Source of the DNA: Bacteroidota bacterium
GTDB taxonomy: Bacteria; Bacteroidota; Bacteroidia; Chitinophagales; Saprospiraceae
Assembly: GCA_963169325.1 (NCBI GenBank)
Contig: CAUJEY010000290.1
Location: 1-57,467, forward strand
Direction of reading: 5' to 3'
DNA length: 57,467 bases
Made by a program: the position numbers and the translations under genes. The notes below the pieces were generated by a model. That model ran no database searches. It was not told the DNA's origin and was given only the letters and a program-made list of their open reading frames with translations. Shown here piece after piece: positions 4,128 to 46,734 of the stretch (its first letter is position 1; the number at the start of each line of letters is the position of its first letter).

Positions 4128-5684
4128 ATGAAAAAAGTTCTGTTATTGCTCGCGGCCTGTTATTTGGGCGCTAACCAGATGTCAGCACAAGATACGAAAA
4201 GCGCGTGCGGAATGAGTGCTGCTGACCAGATGTTGTTTGACGAGCGCTTACTAAACAATATTGAAAAAATGAGATCCGGACAAGTGGTCAGGGAGCGGGG
4301 CGCTATCCAATACGTGCCCGTTCATTTCCACCTTGTCGGTGATGCCCAAGGGGCGGGAAGGGTGAAAGAAAGCCGGGTGCTGGACCAGTTGTGCGCCTTG
4401 AATAAGGCTTATGAGGCCATGGATATCCGATTTTATTTGCGGCCGCACCAGACCCTTGGTACCTTGTTTAATTACAATATAAACAGCGCCAATGTTTACA
4501 CCAATCAGACCTCCTGGCTGACGATGTATAACAACCGGCACACGAATGCCCTTAACGTATTCGTGGTCGATGAAGCCGTGCCGCTCGGCAGTACCGGCGG
4601 CGACGATGGGGAAATACTCGGCTACTACAATCCAACGCGCGACTGGGTCGTGTGCAAACGAAGCAGGGTAAACGGTTCTGCATCCAACTCAACGTTGCCG
4701 CACGAAGTAGGCCACTTTTTTAGCTTAAAACATACCTTTGTGGGATGGGAAGGCACCTCTTTCGGCCCCGGCTCTGCCGGCTGGCCTACCGCCCCAACTT
4801 CGGCCCCGGATGGCACGCCTACCGAGCGTATGAACGAGTTGAACTGCACGGCAGCCGCCGATAAACTGTGCGATACTCCACCGGACTATAATTTCGGTTA
4901 TGGCAATAGCGGCTGTACCTACGATGAAGGTGCCAAAGACCCGCTGGGCGTTTTGGTGGAAACTATGGAGAACAACATGATGGGGTATTTTGAAAGTTGC
5001 AATCCCTATGAATTTACGCAGGAGCAACAAAACGTGATATTAGCCGACCGCGCATCGACGGATCGCAATTATCTGAACAACAATTTTGCTCCCATTGCCA
5101 CGGAAATTACCACCCCTGCCAACTTGCTTAATTCGCCGGCCAACGGCGCTACAACTGCTTACTACGATCAGGTACTGCTTGAATGGAAACCGGTTACCGG
5201 CGCCACCTACTACCTGGTGGAAGTGGACTTTATTTTCGCCTACAATTCGCCTACCGCCCAATCATTCGTGGTCAGTTCTACCTCCAAGTTGATCACCGGT
5301 CTGGATCCGGACAAAACCTACTACTGGCGGGTGCGCCCTTTCAACGAATATGTAACCTGTGCGGAATCCCGTCAACAATCCTTCAAAACATCAATTACTT
5401 CGGCGATCCGCGATATTGAAGGGTTGACGGCTTTGCAAGTTGCTCCCAATCCAGTGCGCGATGGTTTAGCAACTCTTTTTGTACATGCCGAGCGTGATTT
5501 TGAAGCAAATCTTCAAGTGTTTGATGCTACCGGACGCCAGGTATATACCCAAACCGGTCTGAATTTTGCAAATGGCGAATCCACGGTCGAATTACCCATA
5601 ACCGGTCTGCAAAACGGACTTTACTTCGTTATGCTGCAAAGCAACGAAGGCCGGGCCGTGCGGAAGTTTACGGTGCTTCGGTAA
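4128..5684 (+). CDS. Secreted M43 (pappalysin/cytophagalysin-like) zinc metalloprotease with T9SS type A sorting domain
   Basis: The 518-residue protein has a signal peptide (about 1-21, ending MSAQ) and then a metzincin-like domain with the zinc site HEVGHFFSLKH starting at H192. Here Ser replaces the usual Gly, as I recall for many Bacteroidota members. A Cys-rich stretch and a Met-turn candidate (NNMMGYF) follow. A fibronectin III-like domain covers roughly residues 330-425. The last 80 residues (VAPNPVRDG to YFVMLQSNEGRAVRKFTVLR) form a type A T9SS sorting domain. It is probably secreted or surface-anchored and degrades proteins outside the cell. The ATG at 4128 starts the signal peptide; a TTG 12 bp earlier is less likely. 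The stop codon lies in a palindromic repeat. Confidence 0.9.
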   Translation: MKKVLLLLAACYLGANQMSAQDTKSACGMSAADQMLFDERLLNNIEKMRSGQVVRERGAIQYVPVHFHLVGDAQGAGRVKESRVLDQLCALNKAYEAMDIRFYLRPHQTLGTLFNYNINSANVYTNQTSWLTMYNNRHTNALNVFVVDEAVPLGSTGGDDGEILGYYNPTRDWVVCKRSRVNGSASNSTLPHEVGHFFSLKHTFVGWEGTSFGPGSAGWPTAPTSAPDGTPTERMNELNCTAAADKLCDTPPDYNFGYGNSGCTYDEGAKDPLGVLVETMENNMMGYFESCNPYEFTQEQQNVILADRASTDRNYLNNNFAPIATEITTPANLLNSPANGATTAYYDQVLLEWKPVTGATYYLVEVDFIFAYNSPTAQSFVVSSTSKLITGLDPDKTYYWRVRPFNEYVTCAESRQQSFKTSITSAIRDIEGLTALQVAPNPVRDGLATLFVHAERDFEANLQVFDATGRQVYTQTGLNFANGESTVELPITGLQNGLYFVMLQSNEGRAVRKFTVLR

Positions 5685-5778
5685 AAGTCAAAATGTAAAA
5701 GTCAAAATGTAAAATGTAAAAGTGACACGCGAGGCCCTTTTACATTTTACATTTTGACTTTTACATTTTGACTTTTAC
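5681..5778. repeat. Perfect 42-bp inverted repeat between convergent genes
   Basis: Arms 5681-5722 and 5737-5778 are exact reverse complements over 42 bp, with a 14-nt loop (TGACACGCGAGGCC). Each arm is built of GTAAAAGTCAAAAT-like tandem units. The stop codon of the protease gene (5682-5684) lies in one arm. The last residues (VKVKM) and stop of the DUF423 gene lie in the other. It could act as a bidirectional terminator. Confidence 0.95.
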
Positions 5779-6147
5779 CGTCCACAACAGCCCCCACCCG
5801 GCAATAAATCCAATGCCGCCCAAGGGGGTAACCGGCCCCGCCCATCCGACCGGGAATGGCAACAAATCCCGGCAAGCCAGGAGGTAAAGCGAACCGGAGA
5901 AACAGATGATGCCGAACAGGAAAAACCACCCGGCAAGCCTCAATCCCTTGGCGATCCCGCCCTGTTTCTCCAGTAATCCCACCGCCAATAAGGCCAGTGT
6001 ATGGTAAAACTGGTATTGTACCCCTTTTTCATAAATAGATAATTGGTACGCATCGAGATGCGGCTTCAGGGCGTGCGCGCCAAAGGCGCCGATAATGACA
6101 CAAAGTGCGCCTGATATTGCGGCGATTTGAATAAACCTGTTTTGCAT
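5761..6147 (-). CDS. DUF423 family inner-membrane protein
   Basis: The 128-residue protein has about four hydrophobic helices and the family hallmark near the N-terminus, where a first helix is followed by GAFGAHALK and then YQFYHTLALL. The family (YgdD-like) has no assigned biochemical role. The start at 6147 (MQNRF) is preferred over the ATG at 6174, which adds a poorly hydrophobic extension. The final residues VKVKM and the TAA are encoded by an arm of the palindromic repeat at 5681-5778. The natural C-terminus has therefore been replaced or extended by repeat sequence. Confidence 0.88.
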   Translation of the reverse strand: MQNRFIQIAAISGALCVIIGAFGAHALKPHLDAYQLSIYEKGVQYQFYHTLALLAVGLLEKQGGIAKGLRLAGWFFLFGIICFSGSLYLLACRDLLPFPVGWAGPVTPLGGIGFIAGWGLLWTVKVKM

Positions 6148-13774: not shown

Positions 13775-13784
13775 GCATCCACCC

Positions 13785-13823
13785 CAATGACGTCCAATGA
13801 CGAACAATGACGTCCAATGATGA
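13785..13823 (+). repeat. AATGACG tandem array
   Basis: Four copies of CAATGACG/CAATGATG, spaced 10 bp apart, follow the terminator and precede the HAD gene. The unit is the same as at 1-75, 34902-35016 and 35346-35413. There is no inverted arm here. Confidence 0.85.
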
Positions 13824-24160: not shown

Positions 24161-24228
24161 GTAGTTATAAGTTATAAGTTATGAGTTATGCCGAATAAGA
24201 TAACTCATAACTTATAACTCATAACTAC
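24161..24228. repeat. 29-bp near-perfect inverted repeat of AGTTATA heptamers
   Basis: Arms 24161-24189 and 24200-24228 match at 28 of 29 positions around a 10-nt loop (GCCGAATAAG). Each arm is a run of AGTTATA/AGTTATG heptamers. It lies between convergent genes, and its right arm supplies the TAG stop of the minus-strand gene (24225-24227). Confidence 0.95.
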
Positions 24229-25588: not shown

Positions 25589-28500
25589 CTATTTCTTTGC
25601 CGATCCAAGTACCTGGTTAATACGCAATTCAAGGGTATTCAACCGTTTGCGCAAATCTTCATTTTCCTGCTTAAGTGATTCAATTTGATCCTGCTGTTCT
25701 TGAACGGCTTTCACCGCCAAAACACCAAATCCGGCATAATTGAGTCCCAGGTAAGAATTGCCATCCCTCGCGGTATTTTCAGTCACCAGCTCCGGGAAAT
25801 AGGTTTGCACGTCTTGCGCCAGGAAACCGATGGAGCGCTGACTCCCGGCTTTTTCAGGCAGGTAATGGTAAGAAACCGCGTTGAGACGCCGTATCTTATC
25901 CAATACCCCGGGCAGGTTGGAAATATCCTTTTTCAGCCGGCGGTCTGAAGGGGTATAAACGCCGTTTGTGGCGAAAATACCTGCTGGAATGCCCCCGAGC
26001 GTGCTGTTGTATAGTTGCAAATTACCGGATAAAGGTGCCACCTGAAACTCCCAGTTGTTGCCATCGGGGTTTTGCAGCAAAAAACCGCCGTTCAGGTCAT
26101 GGTACACCGCCAGTTTTGCGGCGCCGGTATTGGCAGCGCCGATACCTACATTTCCACTGATTCCATCCACGAAAAGCGACTTTGAATTGGCAGTTGCCAA
26201 TACGATAGAGGAGGAGTCGTTGGTAGCAAGCGTAAAATAATTGGATGTTTTGTTCAAAATTGCATTAACGGCGCCTCCGCCCCCGGCAAACCCGATTTGT
26301 GCGCTGTTTGTGCCTTCCACACGAATAACTTCGCCATTACCTTTTACGTGTAGTGTAGATATGGGAACAGTTGTTCCAATACCTACATTGCCGCTGTTCG
26401 TGTTGTTAATGTTGCTGCCATTGGCGCTCCAAAAACCCGAACTGACACTATTTAGCAAAGTATCCAGGCTTACTTCACTATTGGTACCGGTAATTTTTAG
26501 CAAAGTACCGTTCAAGCTCAGATTTTGCAATTCATTTGCCGGATTACTATCGGCGTCGCCGGTGTTGATAATGGTAAAGTTTGGGGCCGAGCCTGCGATG
26601 TTAATGCCTGCGCCAGCGCTGTAATTATTTACCACAGGAATGGGCAGGGTTACCGTGCCGCCGCCATTCGATAACGAAAGGTTATTTCCGGCCAGTGAAA
26701 GGTTCTGCAGTTCATTGGTATTACTCAGGTCGCCCGTATTGTTAATCGTCAGATTCGGTATTACGCCGGTAATACTGATCCCTGTGCCGGCGGCGTAATT
26801 ATTGCCGCCGCTACCGCCCAGCAGGTCGTCGGACGGCGCCCAGGTAGTGCCGGTCCATTTGAGCACTTGTCCGGCTGCTGCGCCCTGCGGCGCCAGTGCA
26901 AGCGGGGAGATCACGGTTCCGTTACCAATGAATTCATTGGACGATTCAACGGATTGAACGCCCCAGTTGTCGCCGTACTCATCTTCGGGCGCCCAGAAGG
27001 TTCCCTGCCATTTAAGCACCTGTCCAAATGTAGCGCCCTGCCCGGCAAGCCGTAGTGGTGCACCTACTGTGCCATCACCCAAAAAATCAACGTTGGTTAC
27101 CACCGTTTGGGTGCCCCAGTTGTCGCCGACTCCGGTACCGCTATCATCGGCGGGCGCCCAGGTGGCGCCATCCCATTTCAAAACCTGGCCGGGTGTGGCG
27201 CCTTGTTGTGCGATGTTGAGCGGGCTGCCGACAATGCCGGTGCCCGTAAGTGTAGTGCCGGCAAGAGCCGTTTGGGTGCCCCAGTTGTCGGGACCTGCGT
27301 TGTTATCATTCTGCGGCGCCCAGGTAGTGCCGTTCCATTTCAAAACCTGGCCAGGCGTAGCGCCTTGTTGCGCTATATCGAGCGGACTGCCGACTATGCC
27401 GGTACCCGTAAGCGTGGTGCCGGCAAGAGCCGTTTGTGTCCCCCAATCGTCTCCTCCGGCTTCGTCGAAGGGCGCCCATAAAACACCGTTCCATTTGAGT
27501 ACTTGCCCATTTGTTGCGCCTTGTGAGGCTATCCGAAGTGGATCGCCCACGGTGCCATTCCCATCAATGGTGGGGTTGGTGATAGCTGTCTGCGTTCCCC
27601 AGTTGTCAGGGCCGGTATTGTCATCATTCTGCGGCGCCCAGGTAGTGCCGTTCCATTTAAGGACTTGTCCGACAGCTGCACCTTGTGGAGCCAGTTCGAG
27701 GGGTGATGCCGCGGTACCGTTCCCTGCAAATTCGCTATCCGCGACGACTGTTTGAGTCCCCCAGTTGTCCCCACCAGTATTATTATCGGCCGCAGGTACC
27801 CAGGTAGTGCCGTTCCATTTCAAAACCTGGCCGGGCGTGGCGCCTTGTTGTGCGATGTTGAGCGGGTTGCCGACAATGCCGGTACCCGTAAGTGTGGTGC
27901 CGGCAAGAGCCGTTTGAGTTCCCCAATTGTCGGGGCCTGTATTATTGTCGGCCGCAGGCGTCCAGGTAGTGCCGGTCCATTTGAGCACTTGCCCATTTGA
28001 AGCGCCTTGTTGTGCAATGGCCAGCGGGTTGCCTACGGTACCAACACCCGAAAGGGTTGGATTGGCCACTACAGACTGCGCGCCCCAGTTATCACCGCCC
28101 GTATCATCGGTTGCAGGCGCCCATGTTGCCCCGTTCCATTTGAGCACCTGGTTGTTGAGTGCGCTCATTTGGGCAATTTTCACACCGGTTACCGCGGCGT
28201 TTTGCAGGTTATTTGTCGAAATGGAGTTATTCGCCATTTCAAAATTGGTGATGATGTTTTGTTTGATCTGCAGATTACTGAAAGGTCCGCTCAAATCACC
28301 ACCGGCAGTACTGTTTTCCGTAATGTCATCGAACGGGTTAACATCGCCGTTATTACCGATAACATAACCGCCGGGAACAGGAATCACGTCGATACCTACG
28401 CCTGGGGAGATGGTCGTGGTGCCGGTATTGTCGTTGGCGGGCGCCCAGGTAGTGCCATTCCACTTGAGTACCTGGCCGTTAGAAGCGCTTTGTTGCGCAA

Positions 28501-29878
28501 TCTTATTGCCGGTAACGGCGCCGTCGCCGATCTTGGGCGTCGTCACGGCATTAGCACTCAACTCATTGGCGCCCACCACATTGGGTTTCAACTGAAGATC
28601 GGCAAACGGGCCGGTTACATCGCCATTGGCTTGTGTGAAGGTAGTGATATCATCGGCCGCGTTCGTATCCCCCGTATTGACGATCGTAAAATTAGGGGCA
28701 CTACCGGTCACATTGATCCCCGTACCGCCGGTAAGATTGATCGTACCGGTATTATCTACTGCAGGCGCCCACGCTGTGCCCGTCCATTTGAGCACCTGAC
28801 CCGAAGCGGCGCCCATGTCATTCAATTTTGCAGCGGTCACTGCATCGTCAGCAATTTTAGTGGTACCCACGGCATTGTTGGCTAATTCCGTGGCGCCAAC
28901 TGCTCCACCGGCTATTTCGGCACTACCCACTGCGTCGGGATTGATCTGCAGGTTGGAAAAAGGCCCGCTTACATCGCCCGCGGCAACTGTACCGGTTGTC
29001 AGATCGTCATTAGCATTCGTATCACCCGTATTGGTAATGGTAAAATTGACCCCGTTTTGTTGCACGTTAATGCCGGCGGCGCCGGTTATGCCGATGGTGG
29101 TAGGTTGTGGCATCACCGTAAAAACATCCGTGATTCGACCTGTTTGGTCCACGGTAATTACTGGAATCTGGGCAGAACCGCCATAAACACCCGGCGCTAC
29201 CGCAGTATTGTCGAGGCTGATGGTTCCCGAGGTGGTAATCGGGCCACCGGTTAATCCCGTACCGGTATTAATTTGAGTTAGGGTGCCACCGGTTTGTACG
29301 GTATCGGAAATATCGTTCTGGGGCGCCCATTTAGCGCCGTCCCATTTGAGCACTTGTCCGGTTTGCGCGCCTTGCTGGGCAATGCCAAGGGGGTTAGCGG
29401 CTGTGCCGTCGCCTTTAAGAGCCGGATCGGTCTGTACCACCTGGGTACCCCAATTGTCTTGTCCGTTTGCCGAATTTTGGGCATAAATGGCATACGGCAC
29501 ACTCATCAATTGGGTGGAACCGAGCTCATCGAAGACGTTTGGCGCCGTTTCAACCGAGACGGTTAAAAATTTAGCGCCACTGCCCCAGTTCACGGCAGGA
29601 AAAGTGCCTTGCAAAGGGCTTCCTTGCCCGATGACCAAATTTACCAATCCAAATTCGTTGGTTGATACAGTTTGTTTTTCGGAGTAGTTTACCGGACCGT
29701 TTGATGTCCCGGAGCGCACGGTGAAGAGCAGCGTGACGGTTTGGTTATTCATGGAAGCGCCGGTTCCATCCCGCACAATGCATTGGTAGTTAAAACCCTG
29801 AGGCGTAAATTGCGCTTCGGCGCGCCAGGCAATCAGGATCATCAGGAGGGAAAGGAGTAACAAATGACGTCTTGTCAT
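25589..29878 (-). CDS. Giant repetitive surface protein with C-terminal peptidase S74 autoprocessing domain
   Basis: The 1429-residue protein has a signal peptide (ending AEAQ). An N-terminal domain common in Bacteroidota surface proteins follows (FTPQGFNYQCIVRDGTG to VPYAIYAQ). Twelve modules carry GQVLKWNGTTWAP or close variants, many followed by DNWGTQ, alternating with ISLDN or GINVTG-type strands. The C-terminus is an S74 intramolecular chaperone domain with the dyad S1311-K1316 in SDRRLKK and a coiled coil at the end. S74 domains trimerise the protein and then cut themselves off; they are best known from phage tail spikes. The start at 29878 opens the signal peptide. No T9SS sorting domain is visible. 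Confidence 0.85.
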   Translation of the reverse strand: MTRRHLLLLSLLMILIAWRAEAQFTPQGFNYQCIVRDGTGASMNNQTVTLLFTVRSGTSNGPVNYSEKQTVSTNEFGLVNLVIGQGSPLQGTFPAVNWGSGAKFLTVSVETAPNVFDELGSTQLMSVPYAIYAQNSANGQDNWGTQVVQTDPALKGDGTAANPLGIAQQGAQTGQVLKWDGAKWAPQNDISDTVQTGGTLTQINTGTGLTGGPITTSGTISLDNTAVAPGVYGGSAQIPVITVDQTGRITDVFTVMPQPTTIGITGAAGINVQQNGVNFTITNTGDTNANDDLTTGTVAAGDVSGPFSNLQINPDAVGSAEIAGGAVGATELANNAVGTTKIADDAVTAAKLNDMGAASGQVLKWTGTAWAPAVDNTGTINLTGGTGINVTGSAPNFTIVNTGDTNAADDITTFTQANGDVTGPFADLQLKPNVVGANELSANAVTTPKIGDGAVTGNKIAQQSASNGQVLKWNGTTWAPANDNTGTTTISPGVGIDVIPVPGGYVIGNNGDVNPFDDITENSTAGGDLSGPFSNLQIKQNIITNFEMANNSISTNNLQNAAVTGVKIAQMSALNNQVLKWNGATWAPATDDTGGDNWGAQSVVANPTLSGVGTVGNPLAIAQQGASNGQVLKWTGTTWTPAADNNTGPDNWGTQTALAGTTLTGTGIVGNPLNIAQQGATPGQVLKWNGTTWVPAADNNTGGDNWGTQTVVADSEFAGNGTAASPLELAPQGAAVGQVLKWNGTTWAPQNDDNTGPDNWGTQTAITNPTIDGNGTVGDPLRIASQGATNGQVLKWNGVLWAPFDEAGGDDWGTQTALAGTTLTGTGIVGSPLDIAQQGATPGQVLKWNGTTWAPQNDNNAGPDNWGTQTALAGTTLTGTGIVGSPLNIAQQGATPGQVLKWDGATWAPADDSGTGVGDNWGTQTVVTNVDFLGDGTVGAPLRLAGQGATFGQVLKWQGTFWAPEDEYGDNWGVQSVESSNEFIGNGTVISPLALAPQGAAAGQVLKWTGTTWAPSDDLLGGSGGNNYAAGTGISITGVIPNLTINNTGDLSNTNELQNLSLAGNNLSLSNGGGTVTLPIPVVNNYSAGAGINIAGSAPNFTIINTGDADSNPANELQNLSLNGTLLKITGTNSEVSLDTLLNSVSSGFWSANGSNINNTNSGNVGIGTTVPISTLHVKGNGEVIRVEGTNSAQIGFAGGGGAVNAILNKTSNYFTLATNDSSSIVLATANSKSLFVDGISGNVGIGAANTGAAKLAVYHDLNGGFLLQNPDGNNWEFQVAPLSGNLQLYNSTLGGIPAGIFATNGVYTPSDRRLKKDISNLPGVLDKIRRLNAVSYHYLPEKAGSQRSIGFLAQDVQTYFPELVTENTARDGNSYLGLNYAGFGVLAVKAVQEQQDQIESLKQENEDLRKRLNTLELRINQVLGSAKK

Positions 29879-29941
29879 AGTCGGAATCAGTTTTGGAATG
29901 TTCACGAATAAAAAAATCGGGATGATACTGCGATCAAAAGA

Positions 29942-31092: not shown

Positions 31093-33261
31093 TTGAGCAC
31101 CACCACCATTTCCCGACACAAAACTTCCGCTGCAAAAAACGGCAATACCGCCGTCCCAAAACCTGTTCTGGAGCGCGCCTTTCGCCTCATGGCCACTGCC
31201 AAGGCTATGACCGATATTTACGAAGCCAATTTTAAATTCGTTTCCAAATACGTCCATGCCACCTCGCGGGGACATGAAGCTATCCAATTAGCAGTAGCCC
31301 TGCAATTACTCCCGCAGGATTATATTTTCCCCTATTACCGCGACGACAGTATCCTGCTCGGTATTGGGCTTCGCCCTTATGAGTGCATGCTGCAACTCAT
31401 GGCAAAACGTGACGACCCTTTTTCCGGCGGGCGCTCTTACTATTGCCATCCCAGCCTGCGCCGCGACAATATGCCTAAAATTCCGCACCAAAGCAGCGCC
31501 ACTGGTATGCAAGCAATTCCAGCCACCGGAACGGCCATGGGGTTTTGGTATAAAGAAAAGTTTGAAGTTCAAAGTTTGAAGTTTGAAGATCAAACAGATA
31601 CCCCAGAACTTCAAACTTCAAACTTCAAACTTCAAACTTCGAACGTTAAACCGGTTGTCGTTTGTTCGCTTGGCGACGCCTCCGTGACGGAAGGTGAAGT
31701 AGCAGAAGCCTTTCAAATGGCCGTTTTGAAAAAGCTACCTATATTATATCTGGTGCAGGACAATGGCTGGGATATTTCTGCCAACGCCGAAGAAACCCGT
31801 GTGGCTAATGCGGCGGAGTACGCAAAAGGTTTCCCGGGGCTGGAAGCGGTCAGTATAGACGGCAGCGATTTTGAAACGTGTTGGAGTACGGTGCAGGATA
31901 TCCTGAATACAATTCGCCGCGAGCGCCGGCCTTTTTTACTCCACGCCAAAGTGCCCTTGCTCAATCACCATACTTCCGGCGTACGCAAAGAGTGGTACCG
32001 CGACGATTTAGCGGAACACCAGTCCCGCGACCCCTTTCCCATTTTGTACAACACGCTGCTGGAAAACGGGTTTACCGCTGATCAATTGCATAAAATAGAA
32101 GCAGAAGTGGCGGTTTTGGTGGGCGCCGATTTTGAACTTAGCAAAAACGCCGAAGATCCCCGGCCTGAAGACCTCTATACTCACGACTTTGCGCCAACGC
32201 CTGTCACAGAAGAACGCGGCATACGGGAGCCGGCCGGACGCGAGCCGAAAGTTATGGTGGATTGCGCTCTCTTTGCTATTGAAGAACTGATGCGCAAACA
32301 CCCCGAATGTCTGCTTTACGGCCAGGATGTGGGCCGGCGTCTCGGCGGGGTGTTTCGGGAAGCCGCGACTTTAGCAGAAAAATTCGGCGACCACCGCGTG
32401 TTCAATACCCCCATTCAGGAGGCCTTTATCATTGGCAGTACCGTAGGCATGAGCGCCGCCGGCCTGAAACCAATCGTTGAAGTCCAGTTCGCCGATTACA
32501 TCTGGCCTGCCCTCAACCAACTTTTTACCGAAGTGAGCCGCTCCTGCTACCTGACCAACGGCAAATGGCCGGTCAGTTGTGTCCTGCGGGTGCCCATAGG
32601 CGCCTACGGCAGCGGCGGCCCCTACCACAGCAGCAGCGTGGAAAGCGTGGTGGCCAATATTCGTGGGATCAAAATCGCCTACCCAAGTACCGGCGCCGAT
32701 CTGAAAGGCCTGATGAAGGCGGCCTACTACGACCCGAACCCGGTTGTTATTTTTGAGCACAAAGGACTTTACTGGTCCAAAGTACGCGGTACCGAAGGCG
32801 CCCGTACTCCGGAACCCGACGAAGACTATATTATTCCATTTGGAAAAGCCCGCGTTGCCTTATCCGCTGATCCTGAATTGGTTAAAAAAGGCGAAACGCT
32901 CGGTGTTGTAACTTACGGTATGGGCGTTTACTGGGCTATGAACGCCGCGGAACAGTTCAAGGGTAGGGTAGAGGTACTTGACCTGCGCACCCTGTACCCC
33001 CTCGATGAGCAGGCCATGTATGACTTAGCCAAACGCCACGGTAAGGTATTGGTCATCACCGAAGAGCCGGTGAACAACACCTTTGCGCAAAGTCTGGCGG
33101 CGCGTATTTCTGAAAACTGTTTCCAATGGCTCGATGCGCCCGTACGCACCATCGGCGCGGCGAACATGCCGGCAGTGCCCCTGAATTCGACCTTGGAAGG
33201 GGAGATGATTTTGTCGATTGAGAAGGTAGGGAAAGTTTTGCAGGAGGTGTTGGCGTTTTAG
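31093..33261 (+). CDS. 2-oxoacid dehydrogenase E1, alpha and beta subunits fused (branched-chain type)
   Basis: The 722-residue protein joins an E1-alpha half (about 20-370) to an E1-beta half (about 385-722). It is the thiamine-diphosphate decarboxylase of a branched-chain or related 2-oxoacid dehydrogenase complex. The TPP motif GD (194-195) runs to DNGWDIS near 223. The beta half shows GQDVGRRLGGVFREA, FNTPIQEA and a C-terminal EEPVNN. Residues 157-184, just before the TPP motif, are encoded by a palindromic heptamer repeat and look like an in-frame insertion. The predicted start is TTG at 31093; the first ATG (31189) would remove a conserved N-terminal helix. Confidence 0.9.
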   Translation: MSTTTISRHKTSAAKNGNTAVPKPVLERAFRLMATAKAMTDIYEANFKFVSKYVHATSRGHEAIQLAVALQLLPQDYIFPYYRDDSILLGIGLRPYECMLQLMAKRDDPFSGGRSYYCHPSLRRDNMPKIPHQSSATGMQAIPATGTAMGFWYKEKFEVQSLKFEDQTDTPELQTSNFKLQTSNVKPVVVCSLGDASVTEGEVAEAFQMAVLKKLPILYLVQDNGWDISANAEETRVANAAEYAKGFPGLEAVSIDGSDFETCWSTVQDILNTIRRERRPFLLHAKVPLLNHHTSGVRKEWYRDDLAEHQSRDPFPILYNTLLENGFTADQLHKIEAEVAVLVGADFELSKNAEDPRPEDLYTHDFAPTPVTEERGIREPAGREPKVMVDCALFAIEELMRKHPECLLYGQDVGRRLGGVFREAATLAEKFGDHRVFNTPIQEAFIIGSTVGMSAAGLKPIVEVQFADYIWPALNQLFTEVSRSCYLTNGKWPVSCVLRVPIGAYGSGGPYHSSSVESVVANIRGIKIAYPSTGADLKGLMKAAYYDPNPVVIFEHKGLYWSKVRGTEGARTPEPDEDYIIPFGKARVALSADPELVKKGETLGVVTYGMGVYWAMNAAEQFKGRVEVLDLRTLYPLDEQAMYDLAKRHGKVLVITEEPVNNTFAQSLAARISENCFQWLDAPVRTIGAANMPAVPLNSTLEGEMILSIEKVGKVLQEVLAF
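31561..31644. repeat. Heptamer palindrome inserted in frame inside the E1 gene
   Basis: The left arm (31561-31588) is four heptamers, TTTGAAG or its variant TTCAAAG. The right arm (31607-31644) is five CTTCAAA-type heptamers, the reverse complement. An 18-nt loop separates them. The reading frame stays open and yields LQTSNFK-LQTSNVK, since three heptamers equal seven codons. The architecture is the same as the intergenic palindromes at 24161 and 46667. Confidence 0.95.
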
Positions 33262-34901: not shown

Positions 34902-35016
34902 GTCATTGGATCGTCACTCGGTCATTAGTCGTCATTGAGTCATTCGCTGATTGACGTAATGACGACTAATGACTAATGACCGTAATGACGACTAATGACG
35001 TTTAATGACCAATGAC
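34902..35016. repeat. AATGACG family array with inverted arms
   Basis: Left-side units GTCATT (for example GTCATTAGTCGTCATT at 34921-34936) are exactly reverse-complemented by AATGACGACTAATGAC at 34958-34973 and again at 34984-34999. The array covers the whole gap between two minus-strand genes. It encodes the last residues (VIGH) and the stop codon of the rhodanese gene at 35002. Confidence 0.92.
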
Positions 35017-46666: not shown

Positions 46667-46734
46667 TCAATGTGGTCAATGTGGTCAGTATACTTGCGAT
46701 CTGTTTTGACCACATTGACCACATTGACCACATT
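46667..46734. repeat. Perfect 21-bp inverted repeat of AATGTGGTC nonamers
   Basis: Arms 46667-46687 and 46707-46727 are exact reverse complements, with a 19-nt loop, and the right side carries one more unit. The array starts 1 bp after the arginine decarboxylase stop and ends 3 bp before the stop of the convergent exonuclease gene. Confidence 0.95.

Follow-up and report, generated by a model that had tools for sequence, protein, structure and literature searches.

How does a palindrome of tandem heptamers come to lie, in frame, inside the gene of a conserved enzyme? This question is raised by a contig of a Saprospiraceae bacterium that was analysed over its whole length of 57,467 nt (referred to as the window), and that encodes an E1 alpha-beta fusion of a 2-oxo acid dehydrogenase. 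No stop interrupts its ORF of 722 amino acids, the translation of which matched the Pfam domains E1_dh, Transket_pyr and Transketolase_C (Table 1). Two facing heptamer arms were found in frame at 31558-31651, directly ahead of the stretch GDASVTEGE, which we take to be the ThDP-site motif of E1. An earlier inspection of the letters alone (the sequence-only reading) had placed this palindrome at 31561..31644 in the E1-alpha part; it is indeed real, in frame and ahead of the ThDP motif, but its arms extend slightly beyond those limits. When the window was searched for the 14-mer TTTGAAGTTTGAAG with at most one mismatch, all five matches fell inside the E1 array, against a mean of 0.02 over 100 shuffles, which rules out a chance origin.

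Table 1. Features of the E1 gene and neighbouring palindromes (window positions).
Feature	Position	Strand	Remarks
E1 alpha-beta fusion, 2-oxo acid dehydrogenase	31093..33261	+	722 aa, TTG start
Domain matches of E1			E1_dh 54-358, Transket_pyr 395-560, Transketolase_C 596-712
Left arm	31558..31595	+	units AGTTTGA AGTTCAA AGTTTGA AGTTTGA AGATCAA; codes FEVQSLKFEDQ
Spacer of E1 array, 11 bases	31596..31606	+	AGATACCCCAG
Right arm, longer	31607..31651	+	CTTCAAA units, decay at right end; codes LQTSNFKLQTSN
GDASVTEGE codons, residues 194-202	31672..31698	+	downstream of loop
GTAAAAT/GTCAAAAT palindrome	5679..5780	.	no spanning ORF of at least 120 aa; arms mirror near-perfectly
AGTTATA/AGTTATG palindrome	24163..24226	.	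no spanning ORF of at least 120 aa
Palindrome of 9-bp units TCAATGTGG / TTGACCACA	46667..46734	.	no spanning ORF of at least 120 aa
Palindrome of 10-bp GTCATT/AATGAC units	34919..35009	.	

The E1 loop and its reading frame

The array strand was computed to fold at -41 kcal/mol (z -7.3), a strong predicted hairpin, and the facing arms are poor mirror images of each other. In the protein, the array makes up the loop that links helix 141-157 to strand 189-194. An AlphaFold2 model of E1 (25 sequences) gave a pLDDT below 50 at residues 161-182, with flanking blocks of ten at 72-89; this low confidence arises in part because few aligned sequences span the array. Whereas the commonest same-genus class (15 rows, including that of the relative G020) has a loop of 24 residues, the loop here has 42, a net gain of ~18 residues (54 bp) instead of the ~28 extra residues (157-184) put forward in the sequence-only reading. 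The array also takes the place of part of the ancestral loop, or conceals it.

On the coding strand, TTTGAAG brings TGA into frame at every third unit. The explanation given earlier, that the frame stays open because three heptamers make seven codons, fails here, since a pure (TTTGAAG)x3 meets TGA in any frame and it is the variants that keep it open. From 31561, the left arm of E1 reads TTT GAA GTT CAA AGT TTG AAG TTT GAA GAT CAA, and is open only because its units 2 and 5 are variants; the right arm (LQTSNFK) is stop-free.

Arrays and word families in related genomes

The E1 protein was matched in 60 of 60 genomes (the window's own, referred to as G000, and 59 relatives, G0xx), some of the matches being paralogues or parts only. 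The 130 E1 loci read (Lxxx, a label used here for any locus, of E1 or not) yielded 124 distinct parsed loops (one locus unparsed, five duplicates), nine of which contain a period-7 or -8 array: those of G000, G020, G033, G007, G009, L096, L054, L056 and L126. The cut-off for an array was a period score of at least 0.81, chosen after the scores were known and with the next score at 0.67; the other 115 loops scored at most 0.67 for every period from 5 to 12. The L096 array belongs to Aequorivita lipolytica, and the other hosts include several Saprospiraceae. Among the 36 parsed same-genus genomes (G015/L038 was not parsed), five bear an E1-loop array: besides G000, these are G020 with (CTCAAAA)x4, G033 with GTCAACN units, and G007 and G009 with CACCCATx3. 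The latter two are near copies with the same word, and the remaining array loops all have different words. As a separate observation, the E1 loop is longer in part of the genus and includes a VDLENPYPYHFK-like segment (L005, L006, L009, L014-L017, L033, L035), and in the G033 loop tandem arrays lie on both sides of such a segment.

Alignment with homologues and comparison of sister genomes, both proposed in the sequence-only reading, bore out its view of the insert: the G000 array occurs in no other of the 124 loops, eight of which bear arrays of other words, and sister genomes differ in the presence, word and length of the array. The counter-case it had named, homologues from distant genera in which non-repetitive codons encode the same insert, did not turn up in the 80 loci read for it. 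A maximum-likelihood tree (quick method) was made from 124 E1 proteins minus the loop, a set that overlaps with the 124 loops without being identical to it. On this tree the nine array rows entail seven changes of the array label, six of them forced by well-supported branches. The labels were mildly clustered (10 of 500 shuffles were equally low), as would be expected from near copies and related hosts. Differing words and scattered positions on the tree rule out one ancestral insert shared by the E1 loops, and the loop appears to have received such arrays several times independently.

In five species (G000, G020, G033, G022 and L054) the E1- or TsaB-loop word is abundant in the bearer's own genome; the counts that follow are not site numbers, because matches overlap in long arrays. 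(TTTGAAG)x3, a dispersed and near-private family, gave 72 matches in G000, one in G014 and none in the remaining 35 congeners. CTCAAAA, the E1 word of G020, gave 225 in G020, 100 in G000, four in G024 and none in the other 34, and GTCAACN, that of G033, gave 107 in G033, 23 in G010 and at most five elsewhere. CAATCCG, the TsaB-loop word of G022, matched 99 times in G022 and at most three times in its congeners; it is also the E1-loop word of L054 (50 matches in that genome), and has 29 matches in the L056 genome, whose own E1 loop bears another word. Words are not strictly private, CTCAAAA being common to G000 and G020, and CAATCCG to the G022, L054 and L056 genomes. CACCCAT matched once each in G007 and G009, in the E1 loop only, and gave four overlapping matches at a single place in G022. 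In Aequorivita, AATTCAG has one site besides E1 (two other matches were assigned to E1 by coordinates); because these two words are not dispersed, not every loop array fits the notion of an own dispersed family. Each genome would seem to hold several such families, with some words nearly private to a species and some shared.

With regard to a phage origin, no match was obtained in 50,697 phage records, a search in which the BLAST low-complexity filter could mask one. A small palindrome, ATCCCGAGGCCTCGGGAT, was noted itself or as a near copy inside TTTGAAG arrays at L219:975-1095 (the same site as L150:18974-19051), L190:1484-1632, L199 and L201, and also solitary at L137:14896 and L142:4868; it is perhaps a small element nested in the arrays.

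Arrays in other genes and between genes

TTTGAAG arrays stand in open frames of recognisable genes at no fewer than 11 of 38 G000 sites, which were grouped by hand from the (TTTGAAG)x3 list and, C137 apart, examined in unequal depth. A site was counted as in-gene on an open frame plus a Pfam domain or, for TsaB, on orthologues matching both sides. These at least 11 sites lie in the genes of E1, TsaB, an AcrB-like pump, MurF-Alr, TrpE, an M36 peptidase, a ketosynthase-bearing (polyketide synthase-like) protein, NamZ, a prolyl oligopeptidase and two T9SS-sorted proteins. Domains flank the array on both sides in some and on one side in others. E1 and MurF have it within a domain match; TrpE and the T9SS proteins have it in the stretch between domains. 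A peptide search, which gives no rate because it is biased to open frames, further revealed TTTGAAG arrays in HisB and a third T9SS-sorted protein (L201). Among 25 tandem palindromes listed in an unselected 457 kb of G000, two lie inside conserved genes (E1 and TsaB), and a further one falls in a probably untranslated N-terminal extension.

The search for TsaB and HisB covered 28 of 37 same-genus genomes. For HisB, 16 genomes besides G000 show both sides of the array (the other 11 gave a weak one-domain match or none), and in 16 of 16 the array, which lies inside the IGPD domain, is absent, the match breaking off at 269-271 and restarting at 301-305. Because all 16 orthologues skip the array, HisB gained ~35 residues between ERYG and PMDDAL, and is the clearest case; by eye, no target-site duplication was seen at the array junction. 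Elsewhere in HisB, the inter-domain linker (query 149-157) is longer in several congeners (L280, L282-L286), where in G034, G027 and G009, for example, ~66-81 nt separate the two matches.

The TsaB loop counts 52 residues in G000 versus 33-39 in 19 congeners (G000 and G008 counted by hand), a gain of ~15 residues. The same loop carries a CAATCCG array in G022 and a two-word array in G033, with different words of equal polarity on its two sides (read by eye). The pattern reading missed the TsaB rows of G025, G013, G001 and G033 and many HisB rows; the TsaB rows of G002, G004 and G012 were read separately and that of G033 by eye. A penicillin-binding protein gene of G009 (pbpC, L151:3645-6167) was seen to hold two different in-frame arrays of other words, one between the transglycosylase and transpeptidase domains and one within the transpeptidase match. 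We take survival within genes to follow place and phase, the arrays lying within domains at presumed loops in E1 (where the loop is that of the structural model), HisB, TsaB and MurF.

The bearing of phase was examined in nine genes (TrpE had no scorable unit). At the TGA-prone phase, 12 of 12 units are variants (10 CA, 2 CG), whereas phase 2 units have the TG form in 11 of 11 and phase 1 units are mixed (TG in 4 of 11). Reference units, which are mostly intergenic, have TG in 70 and TA in 7 of 122 (77 of 122 for either); a reference unit was required to have array on both sides, a unit in a gene on one side, and in-gene arrays are present at some of the reference loci too. This pattern fits arrays that are translated as protein, in a test that is partly circular because open frames were selected for. 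The CA:CG ratio at the TGA-prone phase is 10:2 in genes versus 10:35 in the reference, an excess of CA that might reflect coding copies from coding-compatible parents or selection on the residue.

The likeness to nearby intergenic palindromes that the sequence-only reading had noted is confirmed, the same kind of element being found outside ORFs (Table 1). Other repeats were seen alongside. Arrays of 10-bp units, in which a CGTCATT core is joined to three bases that vary (GGG, GAT, ATT, AGT), having facing arms in several places, occur in the window at 1-75, 13784-13820 and 34902-35009, and at L131:4927-5167 and L132:5156-5403. A 162-bp repeat in five and a half copies (27142-28033) lies inside a large minus-strand ORF (25589-29905). 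A longer palindromic element with ends like CACACTACTGGACATTTT, MITE-like in character, is present at L139:10943-11065 and near 5791 of the joined G009 stretch, and absent at the G007 counterpart, and a TTCGATA heptamer palindrome (L173:908-1007) lies ~400 bp ahead of an ORF that matches Y1_Tnp.

G007 and G009 were compared over 16 blocks (83 kb aligned of ~190 kb), and are ~95% identical over the main blocks, with differing array copy numbers. The joined G009 stretch has other palindromic insertions, at about 5791 and 57378, and a 186-base difference, a gain or a loss, was seen at the AAATCGT array near 84746 of G007; no clean gain of a heptamer palindrome was found in these 83 kb.

Origin of the arrays and comparison with known systems

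We consider it probable (roughly 0.7) that the E1 insert is an in-frame copy of a dispersed, non-autonomous, hairpin-forming palindrome of tandem units that is copied within the genome and tolerated in flexible loops. Such an element would consist of facing arms of tandem ~7-bp units with a short spacer between them, foldable as a hairpin; single, one-arm arrays exist as well. Copies would arise within the genome, probably via a folded single strand or repair synthesis templated by another array, the arms would later gain or lose units (visible as copy-number differences only), and in-gene copies would persist if they are stop-free and located in flexible loops or linkers. We expect the E1 array to be close to neutral for the enzyme. 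Within-genome copying is favoured because near-private words recur at dozens of sites, spacer cores are shared and HisB shows a gain. Most spacers are dissimilar among arrays; GAGGGGC or its complement occurs in 7 of 30 TTTGAAG spacers (after removal of four belonging to the GGTT family) versus 31 occurrences in 457 kb, and GCCGAAYAWGATAAC is common to three of four AGTTATG spacers. Neither a target-site duplication nor a mover was found for the arrays, Y1_Tnp having been sought as mover candidate.

Alternatively, the arrays might have grown in place, slippage extending a chance seed and a nascent strand snapping back to copy the facing arm, with nothing imported and with the polymerase or repair system of the species having a mutational preference that makes dispersed arrays share a word. 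The copy-number variation between G007 and G009, the near-perfect mirroring of some arms (5679-5780) and the lack of a second CACCCAT site in G007 and G009 speak for this. However, the preference would have to settle on a single exact 7-bp word for dozens of sites, with other words in congeners, spacer cores recur between sites, and HisB stands ~35 residues ahead of 16 congeners; we regard growth in place as unlikely. The sequence-only reading had supposed that the element can land in or grow inside genes, and it is indeed present in frame in other genes; as between landing and growing, the near-private family and the HisB case favour landing. Movement of the hairpin as single-stranded DNA by a Y1 (RAYT/IS200-type) transposase appears decidedly improbable: hairpin and inverted doublet resemble REPINs (PMC3116915), and G000 has three Y1_Tnp matches, but the arms are runs of short units instead of one conserved 16-mer, and TRF found no TTTGAAG array in 2.2-3.3 kb around the three Y1 genes, two of which do have heptamer arrays of other words close by. 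With none of the three adjoining a TTTGAAG array within these stretches, RAYT mobilisation of this family was rejected.

Strand polarity bears on a further possibility, namely that 3' ends at breaks are extended with tandem units by some activity and that the joining of two ends then produces facing arms, as in fused telomeres. Two-arm arrays from eight families begin with G-strand units in 66 of 66 cases (four arrays were counted twice), which points the G-richer strand to the centre, and in an unselected scan of tandem-repeat pairs this held for 34 of 38 complementary pairs of opposite skew (three more had equal or zero skew), the four C-first pairs representing two families, CACATAG and ACCCCACCCCCG. 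The different words of the same polarity on the two sides of the G033 TsaB array (by eye) agree with such end writing. Yet polarity is inherited within a copied family, so that the number of independent cases is that of the families, and by family the tally is ~17-20 to 3 (CACATAG, ACCCCACCCCCG and one weak exception in G009), made by hand, including E1 loops and depending on how a family is defined. Shared spacers moreover point to copying, and there is no candidate enzyme. End writing is therefore kept at a very low probability, the families being the independent units and three running opposite.

Selection of the array for a function in the E1 protein or messenger could account for the repeated hits on one loop in several lineages and for the strong computed RNA hairpin, but words and lengths vary, 115 of 124 loops have no array, the loop has low model confidence and similar peptide occurs in unrelated enzymes, which makes it highly improbable. 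We give almost no credence to an artefact of assembly or binning: many of the genomes are metagenome assemblies and assemblers struggle with repeats, but the in-frame arrays are spread over several genes and genomes, among them assemblies in 7 and 9 contigs and the record of a named strain, Aequorivita lipolytica Y10-2. This array-bearing strain could serve to test the mode of spread. As a broader and quite doubtful conjecture, an activity might write tandem copies of a short word onto DNA ends or into hairpins, the G-rich strand nearly always pointing to the centre, with new words replacing old ones between sister species and the old E1 and TsaB sites being reused; core enzymes would then bear peptide signatures of the current word.

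The preferred reading, copying within the genome, suggests that such repeats spread through these genomes and land repeatedly in tolerant protein loops. The arrays may mark insertion-tolerant loops in E1, TsaB, HisB and MurF, and several word families with recurrent loops would amount to replicate natural experiments on the gain of flexible protein segments.

Heptamer arrays spread in genomes are known from Nostoc, with its heptanucleotide STRR repeats and its small dispersed repeats. In the open-licence literature searched, no report of in-frame tandem-heptamer palindromes in Bacteroidota was found. According to PMC4679880, TAACTGA heptamer repeats occur in hosts that include Beggiatoaceae, Cyanobacteria and five Bacteroidetes, and show indels in 7-nt steps between two Cyanothece strains; they are alike in being dispersed heptamer arrays, with some sets in ORFs. 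In that same text, however, the sets are direct (169, plus one indirect repeat in that genome), lie mostly just upstream of starts and, within ORFs, mostly at protein ends or overlapping the stop, except in one beta'-like protein, whereas the arrays described here have facing arms, lie within genes for E1, TsaB, HisB and MurF, mid-domain and in core enzymes, and change their words between species.

REPINs are likewise hairpins dispersed within a genome that arise from an inverted doublet, and a doublet is present here; the conserved 16-mer core beside RAYT genes and the extragenic location that PMC3116915 describes were not observed. Borg tandem repeats, as described in PMC9879509, evolve fast, lie in genes, form disordered segments and have a recurrent hotspot region, all of which is alike, but they are direct and belong to archaeal extrachromosomal elements, unlike the facing arms here. 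PARCELs share with the arrays a protein-coding repeat with dyad-symmetric DNA, and differ, according to PMC2996958, in their amphipathic motif of 25 residues and in residing in ORFs without assigned function, many of them membrane-targeted.

A close parallel in outcome is formed by the Rickettsia palindromic elements (RPEs), which, according to the review PMC2229807, are palindromic and dispersed, both between genes and in frame in conserved genes; an RPE-bearing Gmk is translated and active with altered substrate affinity, and a title cited there places RPEs in Wolbachia too. In-frame insertions that are absent in relatives were found here in E1, TsaB and HisB (16 of 16), as were copies between genes. 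RPEs are described in that review as defined sequences of 105-146 bp with terminal inverted repeats, which sets them apart from the present units of ~7 bp in variable number and word, with a dominant word that differs by species and several coexisting families. We file the arrays as a new variant among protein-coding palindromic repeats, belonging neither to the RPEs nor to the TAACTGA repeats. In-frame palindromes in housekeeping proteins are best known from Rickettsia, and Bacteroidota show the same outcome by a different construction.
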